Origin: a virus
DNA length: 24,169 nucleotides
Direction: 5' to 3' (one strand)
IMG/VR virus record: IMGVR_UViG_3300020185_000260
Location: 1-24,169 of that record
In this document: piece after piece, positions 17,042-24,169 of the stretch
Numbering within the stretch: position 1 is the stretch's first letter
Layout of the letters: every line of letters starts with the position of its first letter
Program-made: the position numbers and the translations under genes
Notes under the pieces: generated by a model
The model's database searches: none
The model's input: the letters and a program-made list of their open reading frames with translations, nothing else
What the model was told of the DNA's origin: nothing

Positions 17042-18063
17042 TACAAGAGGTCTCCTCGCAATCGTTTGATGGTTGCATCAGGAAGGGCGTTAAACTCGTC
17101 TTCCGTCATGTTGCTAATGTCCAACGCCTTCTCCCCGCGTGCAGCAGAGCTCTCCCCAGGTAACTCGGGCGGTTGCGACTTAGCTGCTTTAAGCTTTTTG
17201 TTTACCTCGGCCCGTTTTTTGGCAACTTCGTCCTGCATAGGGGCCGCTGTTTGCGTCAAAGTGGACTCCTGCGCGGCATCAGTAACCAGATCGTGGTCCT
17301 TAATGACGAAACTGGCGGCTTTTGACAGTGCGTCTACCGCCTCGAAGCCCTGAACGATGAATGCGTCTCGCAAATCGATGACTTCTTGAGTGAAGTCGGC
17401 GTTATATTCGGCGGCATTCTGGTCAAATACTGGGAAAGTCGCCTCCAGCTCGTTTGCAGCAGCCTGTAACGCAGTCGCCTGCGCGTTTTGCGAAACTGTT
17501 TGCTGCATCTTCTGGCTCATGTCGAACTCAAGCTGGGTTTTTTCGGCAGTGCGGATCTGCTGCCGCAGCTGCACAGCCTCTGCTTCCTTGCCGTCGAGCA
17601 GTAAGTTCATGTACTCGCGCTCTTTCGCGTCAAAATCGTAAGAGTCGGGCGCATCTGCAGCAGGTTCTTGCGCCTTTTTCATGTCCTCAACCTGCTTCTG
17701 AAGCGCTTTTTGCTTCGCGAGCACCTCATCTAGCCGCGATTTCGGCACCATGGGCTTGCTAGTAGTAACGTCGGGCTCCTGGGCGGGCTCCGGCGCTGCT
17801 TCTTCAGCAACAACTTCTTCAGTTTCCTCGGCTACGGGCTCCTCTTCGGCTGCCGTTTCCTCTGCTTCCTCGGCTTCAGCAACAACCTCTTCCTCGACCT
17901 CTTCCTCGACCTCTTCGGCTTCGGCAACTGGCTCTTCCGTGGGCTCATCGCCCAACCCGAAGTTCAGATCAAGTGTTTCGTCCTGCTCTGTGGCTTTATC
18001 GGCACCGGGCATAGCATCAAAAACGGTGTCGAACTGATCGGCTGGGGTATCTTTCTTCGCCAT
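17041..18063 (-). CDS. Capsid scaffolding protein (340 aa)
   Basis: Residues about 37-95 are an extreme acidic stretch of Glu, Val and Ala (for example EEVEEEVEEEVVAEAEEAEE). A helical, coiled-coil-prone middle follows (about 108-205: RLDEVLAKQKALQKQVEDMK and onward). The C-terminal part ends EDEFNALPDATIKRLRGDLL, a short helical tail of the kind that binds the capsid protein. Composition, length and position between portal and capsid genes are those of phage scaffolds, which guide procapsid assembly and then leave or are degraded. No protease motif is visible in it. The ATG at 18063 is preceded by AGGAG. Confidence 0.85.
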   Translation of the reverse strand: MAKKDTPADQFDTVFDAMPGADKATEQDETLDLNFGLGDEPTEEPVAEAEEVEEEVEEEVVAEAEEAEETAAEEEPVAEETEEVVAEEAAPEPAQEPDVTTSKPMVPKSRLDEVLAKQKALQKQVEDMKKAQEPAADAPDSYDFDAKEREYMNLLLDGKEAEAVQLRQQIRTAEKTQLEFDMSQKMQQTVSQNAQATALQAAANELEATFPVFDQNAAEYNADFTQEVIDLRDAFIVQGFEAVDALSKAASFVIKDHDLVTDAAQESTLTQTAAPMQDEVAKKRAEVNKKLKAAKSQPPELPGESSAARGEKALDISNMTEDEFNALPDATIKRLRGDLL

Positions 18064-18074
18064 AAGGCAATCTC

Positions 18075-20237
18075 CTATTGGGGGTTACGAAAATTCGGTA
18101 CGTCTGTTTGCTTCGGACGGGCTGCTTGCTTCTTGGCTGATGTCTGCATAGCCGTAGCAGCCATACGCGTTGCAGCGTTCGTTTCCGACTGGCTGCGCCG
18201 TGTCTGGTTAGTAAGGTCAGCAAGCTCACGTCGTAGCATCAGCTCCTGCTCCTTCATGGTCATCTTGCCTTGCAGCTCAGCGACTCTGACCTGCGGATCA
18301 ACCTCGGCAATATCCTGAACCTTGGCGGCGTTAAGCGCAGCTTCGGTCTGAGTCTTCTTAACGTCTGCGTCGAGCTGTGCGATCTCAAGCTGCAACTTCT
18401 GAATAGCCATCTGTTGCTGCATCGCCATAACCTCGGCCTGCTCCGGTGTGGGCGGCTCAGCGCCTGTGATCTGACGGATACGTTTGGCAAGCTCACCCTT
18501 CTTGGCGAGGTGGCTATACTCAATAATCGCGTCGTCAGGAATAGCCACGCCCACTTGGCGAAGGTTGAGGGCTTCAGCGAACTGGACCTCATCGAACGAG
18601 TCGCGCGCAGGTGCAGTAGCAATAACTACGTCGTACTCACCGAGCGTTAAGTCGTTGAGTATCTGACCTTCTGGGGTCATCTCGTTGACCACCATTGCCT
18701 CACGGGGCTGCAGCGGATCAGACTCATCTGTGACCATGATGATGCGCTGCTCGGTATAGAACGCTTGGACCAGATCGAGCACCTTCTCGGCTAGGTACTG
18801 ACGTGCCTTCCGCAGATTGTCGAGGGGCACCTGAATCATCACCACACCACGATTCTGCTTGGCTTGAATCGCGACCCCTGACACCTCGGCACTGTCTGAG
18901 CCGAGCATGCTGTCGTTGATACCCGAGATAGTCTTGATGTTGAGCGCAGCTTTCTGACTGATGCGGTCCAGACCAGTAGGAATCTGATTCGGCTGAATCT
19001 TTACAGGTGGCGTAGAACCACGGTTGTACTCGACAACCAGGCCCGTCTCTGCACCATGCTCCTCTAGGTCATCGGCAGACATACCTACCAATGAACCACT
19101 CTCCACCATCCATCCACTATTAGCTGTGGTATTAACGATATGCAGCTCTTGGCTGGCGATCTTGTTTAGCTGTTCCTGCGGTGAGAGCAAGTTTCGCACC
19201 ATGCCGAATGGTCGCCCTCGGCGGAAATATGCGAAGAAAGGCACGATGGTGAGATCGTTATACGGGCTCCAGTCATCATGCAGCACGATGTGGTCGCATG
19301 TCACAGTCCACCTGACTCGCCGCTTCACCTTACTAATAATGTCGAGGCCGTACTGCTTAGCGAACTTCTTGGCCTTAGCGTCAGACCAGTTCTCTGGTAC
19401 ATCTCTCGTGTCGCCTGTGTTCGGGTCCACGTAGCAGTCAACACGGTGCATGCGTTTGTGCTGGCGCTCGATAACCCGCAGCGCTCTGACGTTGCGGTAC
19501 TCGTCTTCGCCGGGGACACCTGCGCCGAAATAGTCGTCCGCAGAGTCTGTATCACCGAAGCGATTCTCCTCGTACTCGATGGAATCTCTGCCGAATCCAG
19601 ACCCGTTCTCAGCAATGAAGCGCAGATCCTCGGCTTTCTTTTTGCCGTACAGCTCTTCGATCTCGTCCAGAGTCATCCACTTAGTCTCGAAGACTTCGTT
19701 CCAGCTCTTGGGGTCTGAGTCTTTGGCGTCTGGATCAATCAGAATATCGAGTGGGTCTTTGGCGGTTATGCGGATCTCGCCTTCAACGTGATCGCTGAAG
19801 TCCATCCGCACATCAAAATAGCCTCGACCATCAAGGATTAACCCATCGCTAAACACTTGCTGCTCAACCCAATCGAGCTTGTTGTTGTCAGCAATCTGCA
19901 TGTACAGCTTGGTCAGGGTCTGCGCTACGTCCATCTCTCCTGCGCGACGAGGTTTAAACTGTACATCCGCGCGACGTGTGGACTGCTCACCCAGTACCGT
20001 GTTCACTGTAGGAAGGATGGTGTTAATTGTCAGTGCTGGGCGTCCTTCATTATCCAATGCGTGAAGATCTTCTAGCTCCCACTGATCGCCGCGGTAGAAG
20101 GCGTCGCACTTCTTCGCCATGTCGATATATTCAAGGTGGCCGTTATCACGCGCTCGGATATAACGATCCCACTGCTTAGAGGCTACTTCCTGTTGCTCAG
20201 CCGCCGTCATCCTTGACAGTTTCTTTTTATAACTCAT
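18075..20237 (-). CDS. Portal protein, P22-like (720 aa)
   Basis: The portal forms the dodecameric DNA channel at one capsid vertex. The N-terminal part (QWDRYIRARDNGHLEYIDMA, then KCDAFYRGDQWE and NTILPTVNTVLGEQSTRRAD) and the core (KDPLDILIDPDAKDSDPKSW) match the P22 gp1 family, as does the length. Residues about 590-700 are a long Gln/Ala/Leu-rich coiled coil, equivalent to the helical barrel of P22-like portals. I start at ATG 20237. An in-frame GTG at 20246 would overlap the terminase stop and has no better ribosome site. It lies directly after the large terminase and 11 nt before the scaffold. Confidence 0.93.
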   Translation of the reverse strand: MSYKKKLSRMTAAEQQEVASKQWDRYIRARDNGHLEYIDMAKKCDAFYRGDQWELEDLHALDNEGRPALTINTILPTVNTVLGEQSTRRADVQFKPRRAGEMDVAQTLTKLYMQIADNNKLDWVEQQVFSDGLILDGRGYFDVRMDFSDHVEGEIRITAKDPLDILIDPDAKDSDPKSWNEVFETKWMTLDEIEELYGKKKAEDLRFIAENGSGFGRDSIEYEENRFGDTDSADDYFGAGVPGEDEYRNVRALRVIERQHKRMHRVDCYVDPNTGDTRDVPENWSDAKAKKFAKQYGLDIISKVKRRVRWTVTCDHIVLHDDWSPYNDLTIVPFFAYFRRGRPFGMVRNLLSPQEQLNKIASQELHIVNTTANSGWMVESGSLVGMSADDLEEHGAETGLVVEYNRGSTPPVKIQPNQIPTGLDRISQKAALNIKTISGINDSMLGSDSAEVSGVAIQAKQNRGVVMIQVPLDNLRKARQYLAEKVLDLVQAFYTEQRIIMVTDESDPLQPREAMVVNEMTPEGQILNDLTLGEYDVVIATAPARDSFDEVQFAEALNLRQVGVAIPDDAIIEYSHLAKKGELAKRIRQITGAEPPTPEQAEVMAMQQQMAIQKLQLEIAQLDADVKKTQTEAALNAAKVQDIAEVDPQVRVAELQGKMTMKEQELMLRRELADLTNQTRRSQSETNAATRMAATAMQTSAKKQAARPKQTDVPNFRNPQ

Positions 20238-23172: not shown

Positions 23173-23441
23173 GGCCTGCCTCCATGAGTAGCTTACCTAG
23201 GAAGATAGGGCTTAAAAAAAATATTGCAAAAAAAAATTTGAAAACTATTTCTGAATCGCTGACGCACTGTCTCCCTGCCGGACTATTACACGCCCCTTTC
23301 CCCCGATTTCTTATCTGGAACCTTGTTTCATATCGATTTACATGAACCTTGTCCCGTCAGTAACCCCTTACGACTGCTCGTTCCTCGCATTCGAGCATAA
23401 AAGTATGTGAGCTATGTTGCTCAATTACTTGGAGATATACC
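23173..23441. other. Divergent intergenic switch region between late and leftmost plus-strand genes
   Basis: This 269-nt stretch separates the minus-strand late block from the plus-strand small genes. It holds an AT-rich core with A8 and A9 tracts (23214-23221 and 23228-23236), a candidate minus promoter, and a GCTCG/CGAGC inverted repeat (23376-23396). A TGAGC/GCTCA hairpin (23408-23423) lies just before the ribosome site of the first plus gene. I see no convincing plus-strand -35/-10 pair, no tRNA and no open reading frame with a good start. Confidence 0.6.
23202..23229 (-). promoter_or_regulatory. Candidate sigma70-type promoter for the HNH gene
   Basis: On the minus strand: TTGCAA (23224-23229), a 16-nt AT-rich spacer, TATCTT (23202-23207). 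The start would be about 20 nt before the GTG. The flanking A8 and A9 tracts would bend the DNA, which often strengthens promoters. It does not carry the ATATTA spacer element of the three late promoters. Confidence 0.35.
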
Positions 23442-23642
23442 ATGCTTGGAGATTACTCAGTTACCTTCACCGATGAGGTGCTCAACCACGACGCCCCCGA
23501 CCAACTGGCCCTTCCGTTTGGTCAGCTTGAATCAGAGTTCAACGAGTACTCAGAGTTCTTCAGTGCTTGCTTCATGCACTCCGACGACCCGCTGCAATCC
23601 TTCATCCGCTATGAACTTAACCGCATGGAGCATGACTCATGA
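23442..23642 (+). CDS. Small acidic phage protein, first gene of the plus-strand cluster (66 aa)
   Basis: The ATG at 23442 has GGAG 7 nt upstream, within TTGGAGATATACC. The protein is acidic, starts MLGDYSVTFTDEVLNHDAPD and has a hydrophobic-aromatic middle with EYSEFFSACFMHSDD. It ends RMEHDS. The last codons are supplied by the repeated junction sequence that also carries the start of the next gene. No domain is recognised. Location next to the divergent region, small size and opposite strand fit an early, host-directed accessory gene; this is inference. Confidence 0.7.
   Translation: MLGDYSVTFTDEVLNHDAPDQLALPFGQLESEFNEYSEFFSACFMHSDDPLQSFIRYELNRMEHDS
23624..23642 (+). repeat. Gene-junction repeat, copy 1
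   Basis: The 19-mer CATGGAGCATGACTCATGA ends one gene (codons Met-Glu-His-Asp-Ser-stop), provides GGAG as ribosome site and gives the overlapping ATGA start of the next gene. It is identical to copies 2 and 3. Confidence 0.95.
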
Positions 23643-23848
23643 GATTCCACAAGTTCGACATCCCTCGTCCCGAACAGATGCAGCAAGCCTTCGACTTCAT
23701 GGACCTCGACAAAGAACAGCAGAATGAAGCAGTCATTGAGATCTACAAAGCGGCAGCTGCTGCCTCTGCCCACGACATCGTCGACACCGTCAAGCGCAAC
23801 CCCGGCAAGTTCCTCACTGCCTTCCTCGCTGGCGCATTCACTTTCTAA
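23639..23848 (+). CDS. Small helical protein of unknown function (69 aa)
   Basis: The ATG overlaps the previous stop as ATGA, with GGAG 8 nt upstream inside the junction repeat. The N terminus is polar and helical (PRPEQMQQAFDFMDLDKEQQ). An Ala-rich segment follows, then a C-terminal hydrophobic stretch (FLTAFLAGAFTF, residues 58-69) preceded by KRNPGK. The KxNPxKxLxAFLAG ending resembles small membrane-anchored or DUF883-like tails. It is the only complete gene of the four that does not end in MEHDS; its stop is followed by an independent TTGGAG ribosome site. Function unknown. Confidence 0.7.
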   Translation: MRFHKFDIPRPEQMQQAFDFMDLDKEQQNEAVIEIYKAAAAASAHDIVDTVKRNPGKFLTAFLAGAFTF

Positions 23849-23860
23849 TTGGAGATCATC

Positions 23861-24070
23861 ATGAAAGCATTCATCACAATCGCTCTTTCCTGCCTAACCG
23901 TCTACGGCCTTGGCATCGCTTACGCCGCATCAACCCAATCCGTCGTTCAACCCAGCGACATCTCAGCCGACTACATCTGCATCAAAGACACGATGCCTGA
24001 CGCTTACATCTGCCTACCCAAAGCAGAGAACCCTGTCCCTTGGTATCTCAACATGGAGCATGACTCATGA
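23861..24070 (+). CDS. Small secreted protein with signal peptide and two cysteines (69 aa)
   Basis: The ATG at 23861 follows TTGGAGATCATC, an ideal ribosome site; an in-frame TTG at 23849 overlaps that site and is not the start. Residues 1-22 form a Sec-type signal (MKAFITIALSCLTVYGLGIA, then YA), with cleavage likely after AYA. The mature part of about 46 residues has two cysteines 12 apart (ICIKDTMPDAYIC), which could form a disulfide in the periplasm. A lipobox is not convincing. It ends NMEHDS through the second junction repeat. A periplasmic or surface role such as superinfection exclusion is possible but unproven. Confidence 0.7.
   Translation: MKAFITIALSCLTVYGLGIAYAASTQSVVQPSDISADYICIKDTMPDAYICLPKAENPVPWYLNMEHDS
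24049..24070 (+). repeat. Gene-junction repeat, copy 2
   Basis: The same junction sequence as copy 1, here identical to copy 3 over 22 bases (CAAC plus the shared 18-mer). It ends the secreted-protein gene and starts the 28-codon gene through ATGA. Copies 2 and 3 are 83 bp apart and frame that gene. Confidence 0.95.
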
Positions 24071-24153
24071 TTCAGTTCACAATACTCATGGGGGTCTTAT
24101 TGGCCTCTGTCTTTCTCGCCATAGTTCTTGCCAACATGGAGCATGACTCATGA
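24067..24153 (+). CDS. Single-helix membrane microprotein (28 aa)
   Basis: This is a very short gene between junction repeats 2 and 3. It starts at the ATG overlapping the previous TGA, with GGAG 8 nt upstream. After MIQF comes one continuous hydrophobic helix (TILMGVLLASVFLAIVLA, residues 5-22), then NMEHDS. The length and single helix resemble phage and bacterial membrane microproteins that modulate host membrane proteins. Its reality is supported by coupled start, ribosome site and the shared ending, not by homology. Confidence 0.6.
   Translation: MIQFTILMGVLLASVFLAIVLANMEHDS
24132..24153 (+). repeat. Gene-junction repeat, copy 3
   Basis: Identical to copy 2 over 22 bases. It ends the 28-codon gene and provides ribosome site and ATGA start for the next gene. 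Confidence 0.95.
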
Positions 24154-24169
24154 ACCATGCACCTACCGA
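24150..24169 (+). CDS. Start of a further plus-strand gene (partial, right edge)
   Basis: Only six full codons are visible (MNHAPT). The ATG overlaps the preceding TGA and has the same GGAG-8 nt-ATG context as the other repeat-linked starts. It is included because the junction logic predicts it; the product cannot be known from this window. Confidence 0.45.

Follow-up and report, generated by a model that had tools for sequence, protein, structure and literature searches.

A repeated stop/ribosome-site/start joint between reassorting small genes in a group of uncultivated phages

How phages swap single small genes without harming the operon is an old question, in which recombination at boundaries is set against illegitimate recombination followed by selection. 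For the lambdoid ninR region, a boundary model (as cited in PMC3029335) places recombination at short conserved boundaries. Start-associated sequences (SAS) have been described in cluster K mycobacteriophages (PMC3203893) and cluster EF Microbacterium phages (PMC7302621), and PeSL of T4-type phages is a repeated regulatory element between small genes for which modular shuffling has been proposed (PMC4503421). Here we report on a locus in a viral DNA fragment of 24,169 nucleotides (the window, that is, the whole stretch analyzed) and in its relatives. The locus provides natural recombinants, several of them recent, with break points resolved to 16-22 bases, and thus allows a direct comparison of the two models.

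The joint, its small genes and their genomic setting

The 19-mer CATGGAGCATGACTCATGA occurs three times without mismatch, at 23624-23642, 24052-24070 and 24135-24153, always on the + strand and at a gene boundary; the rest of the window has no match even when up to three mismatches are allowed, and 100 dinucleotide-preserving shuffles gave 0 matches. Copies 2 and 3 are the same over 22 nt, and copy 1 agrees at 20 of the 22 positions. In the upstream frame, all three copies read ATG GAG CAT GAC TCA TGA, encoding Met-Glu-His-Asp-Ser-stop (MEHDS), and each contains GGAG 8 nt ahead of the next ATG, with stop and start overlapping as ATGA. The proteins upstream of the three copies are unlike one another outside the MEHDS tail. 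The three copies at gene boundaries, the 22-base match of copies 2 and 3, the MEHDS end, the GGAG spacing, the ATGA overlap and the unrelated upstream proteins had been put forward in a preceding sequence-only reading and held on re-examination.

The cluster starts with a ribosome site, TGGAGATATACC (23430..23441, +), and relatives have a similar TTGGAGATACACC-type site ahead of the exchanged first gene. The cluster genes in the window lie on the + strand. Gene a (23442..23642; 66 aa; dN/dS between relatives 0.16-0.42) has the C-terminus MEHDS. Joint copy 1, with its core GGAGCATGACTCATGA at 23627-23642, comprises the end of gene a, the ribosome site and the start of gene c (23639..23848; 69 aa; dN/dS between relatives 0.13-0.20), and is reassorting. 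Gene d (23861..24070; 69 aa; dN/dS 0.43-0.81) also ends in MEHDS, and its start is signal-peptide-like by inspection. It begins at a second joint of the same cluster, GGAGATCATC-ATG, which is of unrelated sequence and is represented in the window by TTGGAGATCATC-ATG (23849..23863, +). This second type also reassorts, occurring in the pairings c/d, c/h, c/g, b/c, c2/d and c2/k. Copy 2 (core 24055-24070) joins the end of gene d to the start of gene e, and copy 3 (core 24138-24153) joins the end of gene e to the start of gene i, so that gene e (24067..24153; 28 aa, hydrophobic, with an MEHDS end) is bounded exactly by copies 2 and 3, as the sequence-only reading had noticed. In L008, L012 and L033, gene e is the last gene and ends LEDRGE. 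Gene i (24150..24169) is cut by the end of the window, a linear viral fragment that stops 16 nt past copy 3, but it is whole (517-741) in L011, a near-identical contig in which the cluster goes on with a gene whose product ends MEYYA, followed by a diverged joint ATGGAGTACTACGCATGA and the last gene. In most pairwise comparisons of the cluster families dN/dS is well below 1, the highest values being those of close pairs with few changes, and the families therefore look like real genes.

Transcription of the cluster points away from a conserved block on the opposite strand, which holds an HNH/endonuclease VII-type gene, two small genes, terminase, portal and head genes. Two GAACCTTGT-like stretches, possibly regulator or promoter sites, were noted by eye to the left of the cluster, in the intergenic region between the divergent genes (window 23290-23360). 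A related 53.9 kb record supplies the rest of the genome, with replication genes, an integrase and a repressor-like regulator. The L012 genome encodes a tyrosine integrase and a repressor-like regulator (L114:18811-19857 and 17511-18098), and given these two genes the phages of this group may be temperate. To the right of the cluster, the L011 continuation carries a CTGTGACAG-type repeat array, with CTGTGACAG in direct and inverted arrays at L117:1040-1440 (the L011 contig). An iteron-like array is also found right of the cluster at L008:4040-4440, with a GTGTGCCAC-type unit unlike that of L011. This region looks like an iteron origin of replication, in which the sequence recognized has shifted from one relative to another.

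The exact 19-mer was found in eight other IMG/VR contigs, seven with the same small-gene cluster and L011 continuing the cluster of the window; the search of relatives suggested by the sequence-only reading thus yielded more copies at the same locus. Searches with the terminase, with cluster genes and with the 16-base core added further relatives. The relatives are contigs of uncultivated viruses. Among named phages, only distant portal relatives were found, at most 42% identical, and the named phages searched contained no convincing DNA relative of the cluster. A scan of genome contigs returned two terminase relatives (77% and 60%), and the small cluster proteins gave no informative family match. 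Single matches to the 16-mer core in L092 and L094-L098, outside the clade, lie in unrelated contigs, and their number is, by estimate, about the chance level for a 16-mer in such a collection.

Reassortment of gene families and break points at the joint

Gene families reassort across the joint, identity starts and stops there, and its bases are kept independently of the reading frame. About 15 small gene families are common to ten distinct arrangements, in varied order and number. The window together with L011 reads a-c-d-e-i-j. L012 reads a-b3-c-h-e, L008 a-b3-c-d-b4-h-e and L033 b-c-g-e; L009 has b-c2-d-f-j and L005 b-f-g-j. The first gene is a2 in L006 (a2-f-j) and L007 (a2-c2-d-f-j), and a3 in L004 (a3-c2-d-f-j) and L108 (a3-c2-k-f-h-j). 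L010 is arranged like L006 and does not enter the counts, and in L013 only gene a is visible. Gene content between the copies, which the sequence-only reading had proposed to compare, thus differs across relatives.

Several pairs of relatives capture single exchanges. In L005 and L006, genes f and j are 98% and 95% alike, respectively; between these two genes L005 additionally has gene g with one more copy of the joint, and it starts with b where L006 starts with a2. Genes c2, d, f and j of L004 match those of L007 at 94-99%, but the two phages have different first genes. L012 and L008 show little or no difference in genes a, b3, c and e, with h in L012 versus d-b4-h' in L008. Neighboring genes of L005 and L009 are unequal in identity (b 95%, f 93%, j 66%). 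Swaps were aligned at the level of bases for L005/L006 (gain or loss of gene g; first gene), L004/L007 (first gene), L012/L008, L012/L033 and L108/L004.

The core GGAGCATGACTC-ATGA was found in 23 instances between 16 different left/right family pairs; as the definition of the joint required GGAG and TCATGA, its informative part is the remaining spacer. Where the left gene is the same and the right gene different, identity is 93% at -30..-21, 92-100% through the joint and 100% at ATGA, and then drops to 37% over the next four bases and to 23-33% beyond. Conversely, where the right gene is the same and the left gene different, identity is 24-48% up to -17 and 100% from GGAG on. Even when both flanking genes are unrelated, the eight spacer positions are still 92% identical, and when both flanks are orthologous, diverged to about 50-67%, the joint is 98-100% identical.

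Break points show the same pattern. When the hits are limited to those with 93% identity or more, 19 of the 22 break points lie within -26..+12 of a start codon, a zone containing 19.6% of bases; at 85% identity or more, 48 of 100 do so, the remainder mainly representing a few repeated within-gene joints (c/c2, b/b3, j). Break points are the ends of local alignments and the counts share phages, so they are non-independent and nominal P values are not to be taken literally. That a short joint serves the swap, gain or loss of small genes with stop/start coupling maintained, as the sequence-only reading had it, is supported by these break points and by the varying gene content. Exchange joints also lie inside genes (c/c2, b/b3, h and j), so the connector is not the sole site of exchange. 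In comparisons such as L012 versus L009 and L033, families c and c2 have only about 62 bp in common, near the 3' end, while what b shares with b3 is limited to roughly the final 150-170 bp.

What is conserved is the nucleotide sequence. In L005 and L006 the core directly follows a TAA stop, which lies ahead of GGAG, at the b/f and a2/f boundaries, and in L008, L012 and L108 the upstream gene h ends in another frame across the core, as ..INGA-stop. In addition, the tail variants seen (MEHNS, TEHAS, MEHGS, VEHDS and MEQAS) are all non-synonymous. On account of the differing upstream frames and these variants, the common C-terminus is a by-product of the conserved joint; the MEHDS tail had been read as a feature shared by the encoded proteins, which is accurate for the three window copies but does not describe what is kept among relatives. 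The nearly complete L012 genome, with genes called by a simple script, has 11 other overlaps of this type, with differing spacers, and only one pair among its 79 called starts shares at least 11 of 12 upstream bases, namely this joint.

Local tandem duplication does not account for the copies, as the genes between them are unrelated and flank identity falls to background; simple gene duplication, raised as the counter-explanation in the sequence-only reading, is excluded in the same way. The suggestion that GAG and CTC within the repeat pair and hide the ribosome site was not borne out: on its own, the 19-mer has a fold hardly more stable than those of shuffles (z -0.5), folding in three contexts gave -0.25, -0.41 and -2.0, and the pairing is disrupted in L013 and at the last joint of the window cluster.

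A proposed exchange mechanism and its alternatives

We suggest, with a probability of roughly 0.7, that the joint combines a coupled ribosome site with a short recombination joint for the exchange of small genes. It would act as the ribosome site of the next gene through GGAG, an 8-nt spacer and an ATG, which in most cases shares bases with the prior stop (ATGA); judging from this layout, translation of neighboring genes can be coupled by the stop/start overlap. With the same 16-19 bases between many genes, recombination could take place there between co-infecting phages or between two copies in one genome, and its product would be the loss, gain or replacement of a whole gene with stop and start both left intact. 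We infer that homologous or annealing-type recombination at the joint itself caused the exchanges, and that such recombination, together with selection for a working ribosome site, would keep the spacers identical.

According to PMC2327257, the length for RecA and Red recombination is roughly 30 bp, while RecET reportedly works on 5-13 bp, though at low frequency. The homology of the joint is 16-22 bases, often about 30 if the conserved end of the left gene is included, and joint length is thus the main weakness of the recombination reading, being at or below the approximately 30 bp for RecA and Red. No annealing recombinase was recognized among the replication-region proteins searched; L114:16415-17104 encodes a Pam3 gp34-like protein.

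Illegitimate recombination at random sites followed by selection, with the joint kept as a particularly good ribosome site, is the standard model for mosaicism, and the finding that most mosaic phage boundaries are without shared sequence (PMC3029335) fits random joining. The within-gene joints in this cluster and the obvious functional constraint on GGAG and ATGA are likewise in line with it. Selection for a ribosome site, however, leaves the identical 8-nt spacer unexplained, given its 92% identity between unrelated genes and the differing spacers of other overlaps in the same genome, and recombination at the repeat predicts that an inserted gene brings an exact second copy of the boundary with it, as is also the case for the 20-21 base direct repeats between terminase and portal. 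We therefore consider random joining unlikely as the source of these exchanges. The repeat might instead be a recognition site for a translational or RNA regulator of the phage or its host, as has been proposed for SAS (PMC3203893), so that shuffling would be incidental; a repeated, oriented element at the starts of co-transcribed small genes is shared with SAS. Yet only part of the cluster genes have the joint, others using GGAGATCATC, and orthologues switch type (gene c is preceded by the first type in the window but by the second in L012, L008 and L033). As the joint also has no stable hairpin, a regulator site seems very improbable.

Nor does MEHDS behave like a selected C-terminal peptide tag, e.g. 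one setting stability. Families a, d, e, f and g do carry MEHDS or a close variant in some genome, but elsewhere the same bases encode other residues or follow a stop codon, the tail of gene e is missing in three phages, and none of the tail variants seen is synonymous. Conservation of the joint independently of the upstream frame contradicts the tag, and we give it next to no credence.

Comparable joints were seen at other loci. The replication-side slot holds a different small gene in each of L009, L011 and L012, and in L009 both sides of it read TGGAGGTCGCATGA, giving ..EVA tails. The slot genes, 40-62 aa in length and different in each case, were located at L122:11209-11734, L117:4940-5450 and L114:3230-3806. 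Between terminase and portal, L022, L023 (L023:2990-3600), L042, L048 and L051 have a gene of 184-188 aa that is unassigned to a family, and copies of the boundary flank the gene as a direct repeat of 20-21 bases, which is exact in L022, L023 and L048 and has one mismatch in L042. L024 and L056 are without this gene and have a single boundary copy; identity between L023 and L024 is 98% in the terminase flank and 99% in the portal flank. The sequence of this boundary is specific to each clade. Distant relatives (L032, L053, L086-L088, L108 and L110) have other repeated pre-start sequences. In a downstream small-gene cluster of L108 (L108:3135-3630), three starts lie behind the same AGGAGACATGCACC, another repeated ribosome-site joint.

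Somewhat speculatively, there may be several independent, lineage-specific connector sets, comprising GGAGCATGACTC-ATGA, GGAGATCATC-ATG, GGAGGTCGC-ATGA, the terminase-portal GATGAGTGCGTGAT-ATG and others in distant relatives, which would be homogenized within a genome by recombination and allow whole frames to be exchanged like cassettes at several loci. If true, this would be a general gene-exchange system made only of stop/ribosome-site/start joints. Repeated ribosome-site joints also offer a handle for searches and may mark hypervariable loci of small unknown genes. As a general expectation, loci of this class would often hold anti-host functions.

Comparison with boundary sequences, SAS and PeSL

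The boundary sequences of lambdoid phages lie between small genes whose stop and start codons overlap or abut, and the genes vary while the boundaries are kept. The present locus resembles them in that a short conserved boundary stands between differing genes and break points fall on it. In lambda and HK620, in contrast, joints differ from gene to gene; neither ninR region contains the same joint twice, and a joint of one phage had close matches in the other only at the corresponding position. Here, one joint occurs up to three times per operon and between 16 gene pairs.

With SAS, the joint shares a repeated sequence with a Shine-Dalgarno core, in one orientation, ahead of non-structural genes of different families, and the upstream stop codon can fall within the element there as well (PMC3203893; PMC7302621). 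The SAS consensus is GGGATAGGAGCCC, usually 3-7 bp before the start, while the present joint has another sequence and a fixed 8-nt gap. The SAS gap to the start codon is variable, as seen directly in phage Anaya, and the joint here usually overlaps the stop. Extended inverted repeats lie upstream of about half of the SAS copies, whereas the window cluster has no joint-linked inverted repeat. The sections of the SAS papers drawn on here do not propose a role in gene exchange.

PeSL, as summarized in PMC4503421, carries an early promoter and a stem-loop, while the joint described here would act at the stop, the ribosome site and the start. The joint has no sigma-70-like promoter match, bearing in mind that the host's own promoter type may differ from sigma-70, and it showed no stable stem-loop on folding. 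We read the joint as a variation on phage boundary sequences and start-associated sequences, in a repeated form that is not seen in the ninR regions of lambda and HK620.
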